This document shows, piece after piece, positions 42,120-44,379 of a stretch of 64,000 nucleotides of DNA. The notes beneath the pieces were generated by a model. The model was not told the origin of the DNA, searched no databases, and was given only the letters and a program-made list of their open reading frames with translations. The DNA lies in assembly GCA_026414975.1 (NCBI GenBank), contig JAOAHZ010000002.1, positions 1 through 64,000 on the forward strand, given 5' to 3'. This stretch comes from Bacteroidia bacterium. GTDB taxonomy: Bacteria; Bacteroidota; Bacteroidia; SpSt-205. The number at the start of each line of letters is the position of its first letter. Position 1 is the first letter of the stretch. A program made the translations under genes and the position numbers.

Positions 42120-42314
42120 TCAAAAGATAGAGTAGATTGCTCGCATAATCGTGCTAAAGAGCAGGTCTATAAGGCCTATGACGATAGCCAAGAGGAGGCT
42201 GCCCACCAACACAGCTACCGTCGTGCTGAAAAGCTGCTGAAAGGAAGGCCACTCCACCTTGTCGCGCCATTCGGTGTAGTAATCCTTCCACAGCTTTGTC
42301 AGTTTTTCTCGCAT
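42120..42314 (-). CDS. secE: Preprotein translocase subunit SecE
   Basis: A 64-residue single-span form: an amphipathic N-terminal helix (KLWKDYYTEWRDKVEWPSFQQL) followed by one transmembrane helix (VAVLVGSLLLAIVIGLIDLLF). It is part of the SecYEG channel. Its ATG is separated by only two bases (CA) from the discriminator base of tRNA-Trp, so any ribosome contact upstream would have to lie inside the tRNA. Confidence 0.95.
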   Translation of the reverse strand: MREKLTKLWKDYYTEWRDKVEWPSFQQLFSTTVAVLVGSLLLAIVIGLIDLLFSTIMRAIYSIF

Positions 42315-42316
42315 TG

Positions 42317-42389
<73 letters not shown>

Positions 42390-42399
42390 GTGAGGCGGG

Positions 42400-42407
42400 C
42401 AAAGTTA
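42400..42407 (-). promoter_or_regulatory. TAnnTTTG box fused to the tuf stop codon
   Basis: TAACTTTG: its TAA is the stop codon of tuf. It ends 10 bases before tRNA-Trp and could start the tRNA-Trp-secE-nusG-ribosomal-rpoBC transcript independently of tuf. Confidence 0.6.
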
Positions 42408-43592
42408 ATCTAAAATTTCCGTAACTTGACCCGCACCGATGGTGCGCCCCCCTTCGCGTATAGCGAAGCGAAGCCCTTTTTCCATGGCAATAGGATAGAT
42501 CAGCTCCACCTCAATGCTAACATTATCGCCAGGCATGACCATCGGCACATCAGGCGGGAGCTTGATTGTACCTGTAACATCCGCTGTACGGAAGAAGAAC
42601 TGCGGACGGTAATTAGTGGTAAAAGGCGTATGCCGTCCTCCCTCTTCTTTGGTGAGGATATACACTTCGGCTTTGAAGCGCTTATGGGGAGTAACGCTGT
42701 TGGGAGCACATACAACCATGCCGCGCCGAACTTGGTCCTTATCAATACCGCGCAGCAAGAGTCCTACGTTATCGCCTGCCTGCCCTTCCTCCAAAAGCTT
42801 GCGGAACATTTCTATACCCGTAACGACAGAGGTCAGTTTCTCCTCACGCAGACCTACAATATCAACGGGCTCGTTGAGTTTTATACGCCCCCGCTCTATT
42901 CGCCCCGTTACGACGGTACCACGACCCGTGATAGAGACCACATCTTCAACCGGCATCAGGAATGGCTTATCTACGATCCGCTGAGGCGTCGGGATGTAAG
43001 TATCTAGGGTCTCAATCAGTTCTACAACCTTTGCTTCCCATTTAGGGTCCCCATTAAGCGCGCCAAGCGCCGAGCCCCGTATGATAGGAGTGGTATCACC
43101 AGGGTAGCCGTAGAAGTTCAAAAGGTCCCGAATTTCCATTTCGGCTAGCTCCAAAAGCTCCTCGTCATCTACCATATCTACCTTATTCAGAAAGACAACG
43201 ATGTGAGGCACCCCAACCTGCCGAGCGAGGAGAATATGCTCTCGAGTCTGAGCTTTGGGGCCATCGGTTGCAGCTACTACAAGAATAGCTGCATCCATTT
43301 GCGCAGCGCCCGTCACCATGTTCTTCACATAGTCTGCATGCCCAGGACAATCAATATGAGCATAATGCCGCTTGTCGCTACTGTATTCTACATGAGCTGT
43401 ATTGATGGTAATGCCCCGCTCTCGTTCCTCAGGGGCATTGTCTATGGAGTCATAAGAACGTTCCTGAGCCAACCCCTTTTTCGCCAGCACCTTCGTGATA
43501 GCGGCAGTAAGGGTGGTCTTACCATGGTCTACATGCCCGATCGTACCTACGTTCACATGTTCTTTATCGCGGACGAAAACCTCTTTAGCCAT
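42405..43592 (-). CDS. tuf: Elongation factor Tu
   Basis: A 395-residue GTPase that delivers aminoacyl-tRNA to the ribosome. G motifs are visible: [10 protein letters not shown] near residue 18, [19 protein letters not shown], and [10 protein letters not shown] in the G5 region; domains 2 and 3 follow with the [14 protein letters not shown] segment. The ATG follows a leader of about 70 bases that holds a tRNA-like fold ending 5 bases upstream. The stop codon TAA is part of the next promoter box. Confidence 0.98.
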
Positions 43593-43597
43593 ATAGT

Positions 43598-43656
43598 GCT
43601 GCCTTCCGGAGTCGAACCGGCCTTCCCCTTTAGGGAGCTCCCCGAGCTATGACAGC
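43598..43656 (-). ncRNA. tRNA-like fold without anticodon arm in the tuf leader
   Basis: A 59-base element that can form a closing stem GCTGTC/GGCAGC (one G-U), a D-arm-like hairpin AGCTC-GGG-GAGCT, a short hairpin CCC-TAAAG-GGG, and a T-arm-like hairpin CCGG-TTCGACT-CCGG with a canonical T-loop. It starts with the AT-AGCTC order of a tRNA D-arm. No 5-bp/7-base anticodon arm can be drawn, so it is not a normal tRNA. It may be a decayed tRNA gene or a tRNA mimic that serves as a processing or regulatory handle. Confidence 0.6.
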
Positions 43657-43667
43657 CGAAAGCGGTG

Positions 43668-43675
43668 CAAAGGTA
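43668..43675 (-). promoter_or_regulatory. TAnnTTTG box of tuf
   Basis: TACCTTTG, 11 bases before the closing stem of the tRNA-like element; the predicted transcript starts near 43663. A T-rich run precedes it, and TTG further upstream is a candidate -33 element. Confidence 0.65.
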
Positions 43676-43703: not shown

Positions 43704-44303
43704 TCAGCCCCCGAAATAGAAGGCAAGTCGAAGCGTAAACCAGAGGGGATTTATGCGCCCTCCTTTGGATGACTTGATATTGATGAAGCTGTATGCTGTT
43801 CGCAAATCCACCGCGAAAGGTGTATCGCCTTCATAAGAGAAGCCTAACCCCCCTAAAAGCGAGCCGGCATATCGGTTGTATAAGCTGGCGTTATTTGAAA
43901 AGCTGCCTCCATCGGGCTTAGACCTGGCTGATAAGAGGATATCAGCTTGGGCCCCTACCGAGGCAGTAAGACCTGCTCCCGCTTCTCCAATAGGCAGCCA
44001 TTGGACTCGCACATAAAGAGGTACTTGAAGAGTAAGAAGGCGATTAGTGGAACGGGTCGTCGTCTGAGCTGCCCCACCCTCCTCTTCACGCCACCCAGCT
44101 AAGGAGCCCAACAAGTCCATGCCTATCACAGCCATTTCGGTGAAAAAGACTTCCCCAGAGATACCTCCAGCAAACCCCGTAACAAAGTAGTCTTTGCGCA
44201 TTTCTCCTTTTGCGCTGGTGGCTTGCGGTGCCAAAACCACCCCGATCCGAGCTTGGGCCCACAGAATACCTAAGAAAGCTACGAGTAGTACTAACTGGCT
44301 CAT
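43704..44303 (-). CDS. Outer membrane beta-barrel protein
   Basis: A 199-residue protein with a signal peptide (LVLLVAFLGILWAQA) and a series of alternating hydrophobic/polar strands ending in an aromatic residue followed by two Gly (RLAFYFGG), as in porin-like small barrels of Bacteroidota. The function is unknown. The ATG is only 4 bases after the last base of tRNA-Thr, so the two are on one transcript with no leader of its own. It sits between tRNA-Thr and tuf, which are adjacent in many bacteria, suggesting that it was inserted between them. Confidence 0.75.
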   Translation of the reverse strand: MSQLVLLVAFLGILWAQARIGVVLAPQATSAKGEMRKDYFVTGFAGGISGEVFFTEMAVIGMDLLGSLAGWREEEGGAAQTTTRSTNRLLTLQVPLYVRVQWLPIGEAGAGLTASVGAQADILLSARSKPDGGSFSNNASLYNRYAGSLLGGLGFSYEGDTPFAVDLRTAYSFINIKSSKGGRINPLWFTLRLAFYFGG

Positions 44304-44307
44304 GTAG

Positions 44308-44379
44308 AGCCATCGGCCGGGATCGAACCGGCGACCTCTTCCTTACCAAGGAAGTGCTCTGCCGCTGAGCTACGATGGC
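44308..44379 (-). tRNA. tRNA-Thr (GGT anticodon)
   Basis: A 72-base cloverleaf with acceptor GCCATCG/CGATGGC, D-arm GCTC/GAGC, anticodon stem CTTCC/GGAAG with loop TTGGTAA (anticodon GGT), T-arm GCCGG-TTCGATC-CCGGC and discriminator T. CCA is not encoded: CTAC and the ATG of the barrel gene follow. Confidence 0.97.

Follow-up and report, generated by a model that had tools for sequence, protein, structure and literature searches.

A conserved tRNA-like leader on tuf in a Bacteroidia genus as a candidate tRNA-derived processing signal

Why should the leader of an elongation factor Tu gene fold like a tRNA that has lost its anticodon arm? This question is raised by a 64,000-nt stretch of DNA (the window), part of a 217,744-bp bacterial chromosome contig with a tuf-secE-nusG-rplK region. 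The minus strand of the window carries rpoB-rplL-rplJ-rplA-rplK-nusG-(secE)-tRNA-Trp-tuf, as in Bacteroidota, and tuf (42405-43592, minus strand) encodes a 395-aa EF-Tu, is the only EF-Tu gene of the genome and has its AUG starting at 43592; throughout, 5' ends and start codons are predictions. From the letters alone, a 59-base tRNA-like fold had been noted in the tuf leader and read in three ways: as a decayed tRNA, as a mimic sensed by EF-Tu, or as a handle for RNase P or RNase Z.

The fold spans 43598-43656 of the minus strand (G1 at 43656, C72 at 43598) and occupies the tuf leader. Read 5' to 3', it begins with the acceptor-stem strand GCUGUCA (43650-43656), the first six bases of which pair, followed by UA as a U8-A9-like linker (43648-43649) and a reduced D-arm, GCUC-GGG-GAGC (43637-43647), with at least two adjacent G residues in its loop and a GG step in 11/11 species. 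A short hairpin, UCCCU-AAA-GGGGA (43624-43636), stands at the place of the anticodon arm; its stem is present in each species despite variable sequence and length. After AGG comes the T-arm CCGG-UUCGACU-CCGG (43606-43620), near-invariant in the 11 species with one compensated change from C-G to U-A, and then AA and the 3' acceptor strand GGCAGC (43598-43603), which covaries with its 5' partner across the 11 species. A discriminator-like A73 (43597; A in 9/11 species) and the linker CUAU (43593-43596), the predicted 5' end of a processed tuf mRNA, lead to the AUG. The first linker base is an invariant C, and the linker is 4 nt long, but 3 nt in two species. Upstream, a Bacteroidota -7 promoter box, TACCTTTG (43668-43675), is separated from the acceptor stem by 11 nt in 10/11 species and by 9 nt in the remaining one. 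In the window these 11 nt, CACCGCTTTCG (43657-43667), probably contain the transcription start, which the position of the box places near 43663, and a short 5' extension. Two details of the sequence-only reading changed: position 43675, taken as the start of the message, is where the -7 box begins, and the tiny hairpin occupies the position of an anticodon arm. Its placement of the fold between promoter and ATG applies to 11/11 species. In the opening tuf codons GAG GTT TTC (43575-43592 and relatives), synonymous positions vary less than in the remainder of the gene (mean codon identity 0.75 in the first codons vs 0.59), which may reflect codon bias or a start-region signal.

That a conserved tRNA-like leader exists on tuf we regard as practically certain. 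The case for the fold rests on the comparison of species rather than on energy, since single-sequence folding with flanks gave a different, long hairpin as the minimum and no significance (z 0.23). When the window's core was folded from its true first to its true last base, the reduced cloverleaf came out as the minimum, at -24.2 kcal/mol. This structure is the minimum also in five other species and lies within 0.1 kcal/mol of it in L090; in L088 and L089 the four helices are all present but the acceptor stem is shifted, and L083 and L091 fold differently, L091 poorly. The z score of the window's core alone, -1.2, is not significant, and the mean over the 11 species is -1.65 (combined, about -5.5).

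The element was found at the identical place in 11/11 genomes of the genus, that of the window and ten further species. The average difference between these species is 67% at fourfold-degenerate tuf sites and 6% in the T-arm. When the acceptor stem was paired manually, 68/77 pairs were standard, against an average of 56 when the strands were swapped between species, and 1 of 200,000 such shuffles reached 68. Mapped on a tree built from tuf and the sequence that follows it, pair positions 3, 4 and 5 alternate among U-A, C-G, G-C and A-U, changing 4, 3 and 5 times with one unpaired cell in total; since branches within the genus have weak support, these counts are approximate. The model-based alignment contains nine pairs with double changes, and its covariation was 0.329 vs 0.200 when shuffled and 0.098-0.184 when slid. 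The D-arm and the T-arm are conserved rather than covarying, and the T-loop has UUCGA in every species. The outermost T-stem pair (49-65) is mismatched in most species, and the D-loop has just 3-4 nt. RNAalifold, run on the covariance-model alignment, swapped the D-arm for another helix with little covariation, because the 3- and 4-nt D-loops were misaligned. The comparison of tuf leaders from close relatives, which the sequence-only reading had named as its own test, thus bears out a fold without an anticodon arm whose stems are still paired.

Standard classification does not recognize the element. Neither ARAGORN nor Rfam called a tRNA at the fold, which is no member of the Rfam tRNA family (RF00005), having no decodable anticodon arm and a hairpin loop that varies among species. 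The best Rfam clan match was sub-threshold (tRNA-Sec, 15.8 bits vs 47), and this and other near-matches below threshold (Plastid-ycf2 antisense, snoRNAs) were taken as chance or generic tRNA likeness. Recognition by threonyl-tRNA synthetase (ThrRS) was considered because G1-C72 and C2-G71, the bacterial threonine identity pairs, are invariant in the fold, but the fold has no anticodon.

The distribution of the element points to a narrow origin. A covariance model search found one element per genus genome (58-78 bits), with ordinary tRNAs as the next-best matches. The best other match in the own genome is an intact tRNA-Thr(GGU) (44307-44379, minus strand; 41.6 bits), the likely parent of the fold. 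A pattern of a T-arm near the EF-Tu start occurred in 9/395 genomes of the class, all in the genus, the two genus members that it missed differing in its EF-Tu part; a T-arm abutting tuf was found in 0/384 other genomes of the class. In G011, a genome of the same family, the 5' end of tuf is missing, so that it is not informative on the genus boundary. G012, a relative from the same order, lacks the element; an intact tRNA-Thr precedes its tuf by 21 nt. Other members of the class usually have tRNA-Thr, Tyr, Gly and Thr, in this order, ahead of tuf; the Tyr-Gly(TCC) pair, usually before tuf in Bacteroidia, sits elsewhere in the genus (L155, L157). In L087 and L090, the element closely follows an intact tRNA-Thr that has a -7 box of its own and a like layout, and in L087 the 3' acceptor strand of the element (CGATGGC) is that of its tRNA-Thr. 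The simplest origin would be that a tRNA-Thr unit was duplicated in tandem and one copy then lost its anticodon arm. No second element was found in the genus, since the short model matches L155, L156 and L157 proved to be ordinary tRNAs; a further one, L158, was not a tRNA call. A search of four genomes for a T-arm near an ATG returned real tRNAs, tmRNA-like 3' ends and the tuf element, with no second pseudo-tRNA among the matches inspected.

The spacing between fold and AUG recurs after real tRNAs. The tRNA-Trp(CCA) gene (42316-42389, minus strand) lies 15 nt past the tuf stop, and the ATG of a 64-aa ORF (42120-42314, minus strand), named secE from its position and length, follows its discriminator by 2 nt; this distance is 2-3 nt in 11/11 species. 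Likewise, the ATG of a 199-aa ORF with a signal-peptide-like start (43704-44303, minus strand) lies 4 nt (CUAC) after the tRNA-Thr discriminator, and the distance is 2-7 nt in the six species having that ORF; it was not found after tRNA-Thr in L086, L087, L089 and L090. The two junctions in the window read U-CUAC-AUG after tRNA-Thr and A-CUAU-AUG after the tuf element, and the linkers between tRNAs and ORFs (ctac, ct, ca, c) resemble those between fold and AUG (ctat, ccat, ctgt, ctt). An ATG-initiated ORF begins 0-6 nt after the discriminator of 7/34 terminal tRNAs in the own genome, for which the statistics rest on about 464 kb, and of 5/34 in G005, compared with 1/247 tRNAs elsewhere in the class, that one in the same-order relative (Fisher 1.5e-6). 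Five junctions (His, Leu-TAA, Arg-TCG, Ser-TGA and Trp) are common to the own genome and G005. Such junctions, several conserved between species, look like a bacterial form of tRNA punctuation. Genes 1-5 nt past a tRNA discriminator were seen in the window at 42312-42389 and 44301-44379, at L172, L175, L181, L183 and L191, and in G005 at L241, L247, L252, L262 and L266.

The lineage also appears, from the placement of its promoter boxes, to make many leaderless mRNAs. We scanned the window (1-64000) and G000 contigs C34, C54 and C11 for the box TAnnTTTG and found it 12-16 nt before the ATG in 45/301 own genes, vs 5/234 in three control genomes of other Bacteroidia. The distances peak at exactly 12 nt (24 genes; TAnnTTTGnnnnATG), with at most 8 in any neighbouring bin. 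In G051, 5/30 had the box at a leaderless-type distance. The start signals of tuf differ from those elsewhere in the class: A occupies -3 in 70% and -6 in 65% of 84 other Bacteroidia tuf leaders, whose last 25 nt are 19% GC, vs A-3 in 0/11, A-6 in 0/11 and 59% GC in the genus. Initiation in Bacteroidia depends on adenines and low structure, and Flavobacterium tuf carries such adenines (PMC9976891).

These observations bear on the element as a tRNA-derived processing signal, a bacterial "t-element" that would trim the tuf mRNA nearly to its first codon, a reading to which we give about an even chance, leaning slightly in its favour. From the sequences we infer a duplication route, cleavage, leaderless translation and any regulatory benefit as follows. 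Duplication of a tRNA-Thr(GGU) gene together with its promoter would have placed two copies ahead of tuf; the upstream one would have stayed a tRNA, and the downstream one would have lost the anticodon arm while retaining acceptor stem, D-arm and T-arm. Transcription would begin a few bases ahead of the fold, and in the nascent leader the acceptor stem and T-arm would stack and a tRNA-like elbow would form. RNase Z is the endonuclease for pre-tRNAs that lack CCA, and RNase P acts at the 5' side. RNase Z, probably with RNase P at the 5' side, would take the fold for a pre-tRNA and cut after the discriminator, yielding a tuf mRNA that starts with CUAU-AUG and is practically leaderless. The 3' end of the message would be set by tRNA-Trp, as in mitochondrial tRNA punctuation. 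The genome encodes RNase P RNA and an RNase Z (E 5e-78, yet at 261.6 below the curated cut-off of 293). Both enzymes read the tRNA elbow (PMC4810234), and mascRNA and menRNA, which are RNase P/Z substrates, have a reduced D-arm with two G residues and a compact hairpin on the anticodon side (PMC11693755). Because a tRNA must be matured, the message for a gene that starts 1-5 nt behind a real tRNA has presumably been freed of that tRNA before translation; since the tuf element has parts of the mascRNA/menRNA type and a similar distance to the AUG, we propose a pseudo-tRNA kept as a processing mark. Real tRNAs standing 1-5 nt before starts in the same way, together with the many leaderless-looking mRNAs, make the cleavage handle the best supported of the three early readings, with the cleavage itself a prediction. 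Speaking against it are the outer T-stem mismatch in most species, the 3-4 nt D-loop, the poor L091 fold and the RNase Z score below cut-off. Moreover, processing alone does not explain why the fold was retained, because a promoter adjoining the ATG, common here, gives a leaderless mRNA without any fold. Possible reasons are a stable-RNA-type promoter unable to start with AUG, coupling of EF-Tu to the tRNA-processing load, or EF-Tu binding.

Known systems share parts of this arrangement. Plant mitochondrial t-elements are tRNA-derived, tRNA-like structures at mRNA ends that are not working tRNAs and are reportedly cut by RNase P/RNase Z to define the end (PMC11658184); a CCA tail and the absence of aminoacylation also mark the class. 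The tuf element resembles them in its homology to a tRNA gene (the tRNA-Thr(GGU) match and the tandem layouts above), its tRNA-like secondary structure and its place at a predicted mRNA end. Unlike them, it lies on a bacterial chromosome, all described cases being from plant mitochondrial genomes, is attached to tuf, covaries genus-wide and ends 4 nt before a start codon, and its cleavage is predicted. It may therefore work like a t-element, but its location on a bacterial chromosome sets it apart from the described members. In animal mitochondrial tRNA punctuation (PMC4394434), as here, protein genes are tightly bounded by tRNAs, and near-leaderless mRNAs are predicted; the difference is that this is a bacterium with many promoters, that only some genes are involved and that one punctuator is no longer a tRNA. 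mascRNA and menRNA, alike in the parts named above, are cut from long noncoding RNAs in the vertebrate nucleus. The yjdF riboswitch (PMC9142559) is likewise a tRNA-homologous fold in a bacterial mRNA leader and controls translation of the next gene, but it has a ligand-binding junction and a Shine-Dalgarno switch and is related to tRNA-Lys; its Rfam covariance model gave no match to the element at the gathering threshold or at E<=10. In the E. coli thrS operator (PMC9976931), too, the leader of a translation gene contains a tRNA mimic, but what it presents to a synthetase is a likeness of the anticodon arm, and the tuf element has no anticodon. In an incomplete search of the literature, we found no bacterial mRNA case, no tRNA-like tuf leader and no EF-Tu binding its own mRNA.

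Four other explanations were weighed against the processing signal. First, the uncut fold could act in cis as a translation enhancer that aids ribosome loading and replaces the A-rich leader of other Bacteroidia tuf genes, which we consider unlikely. In vitro, a tRNA in the leader increased translation 2-6.3-fold, and the tRNA-like yjdF aptamer gave a gain of 60% that required two G residues in the D-loop (PMC9142559); the genus keeps the D-loop GG and the T-loop UUCGA while having lost the A-rich signals. However, the constructs in that study had an enhancer and a Shine-Dalgarno sequence between tRNA and AUG, where the tuf leader has 4 nt only, and other genes here directly follow real tRNAs, which need to be cut out to function.

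Second, free EF-Tu could bind the leader as an acceptor/T-arm mimic and block AUG access or RNase Z, so that tuf translation drops when EF-Tu exceeds aminoacyl-tRNA. The fold occurs only before tuf, which is single-copy, it keeps the tRNA half that EF-Tu touches, and its end, 4 nt before the AUG, is a place from which a bound protein would obstruct initiation; the autoregulation of tufB reported in Salmonella (Brandis 2016, as cited in PMC6134099) was also counted in its favour. Against these points, the T-stem pair 49-65, in the region read by EF-Tu, is mismatched in most species. Tight EF-Tu binding depends on a free 3' end and an amino acid, and the fold has neither. The position is also not special to EF-Tu, because ordinary tRNAs before unrelated genes show the same AUG spacing. 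A mimic sensed by EF-Tu, as suggested from the letters alone, is possible, the positive evidence being its position, but autoregulation by this route seems to us distinctly unlikely.

Third, the fold might shield the 5' end of the tuf mRNA from decay or provide the context of a strong, stable-RNA-type promoter, with no tRNA-specific recognition. The fold does take up nearly the whole 5' end, and in several species the first bases to be transcribed (CACCGC-like) are similar to those at the tRNA-Thr promoter. A generic cap, however, could do without the fixed AUG distance, the D-loop GG and the near-invariant UUCGA in the T-loop, and we hold this explanation to be improbable. Finally, a functionless random remnant of a decayed tRNA gene is almost certainly the wrong explanation: descent from a tRNA-Thr copy with loss of the anticodon arm stands, but mere decay is rejected because the stems have coevolved across 11 species that are close to saturation at synonymous sites, with fixed spacing on both sides and presence in 11/11 genomes, and the species-swap test speaks against an alignment artefact.

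A wider view, which we hold to be doubtful, is that the genus uses tRNAs and one pseudo-tRNA as punctuation for near-leaderless mRNAs, and that the tuf pseudo-tRNA in addition ties the supply of EF-Tu either to the processing of tRNAs or to the level of free EF-Tu, so that EF-Tu and its ligand would be joined in a feedback loop. If the processing model is right, tRNA punctuation and t-elements, hitherto described in organelles, would extend to a free bacterial chromosome, and the two jobs of a tRNA gene would have been split between copies, one staying a tRNA and the other keeping the cutting signal only. The tuf element would then offer a concrete, testable RNA with which to ask how the cell adjusts EF-Tu levels to tRNA, a long-standing question, and would point to a Bacteroidota lineage that has traded the usual A-rich start signals for leaderless starts.
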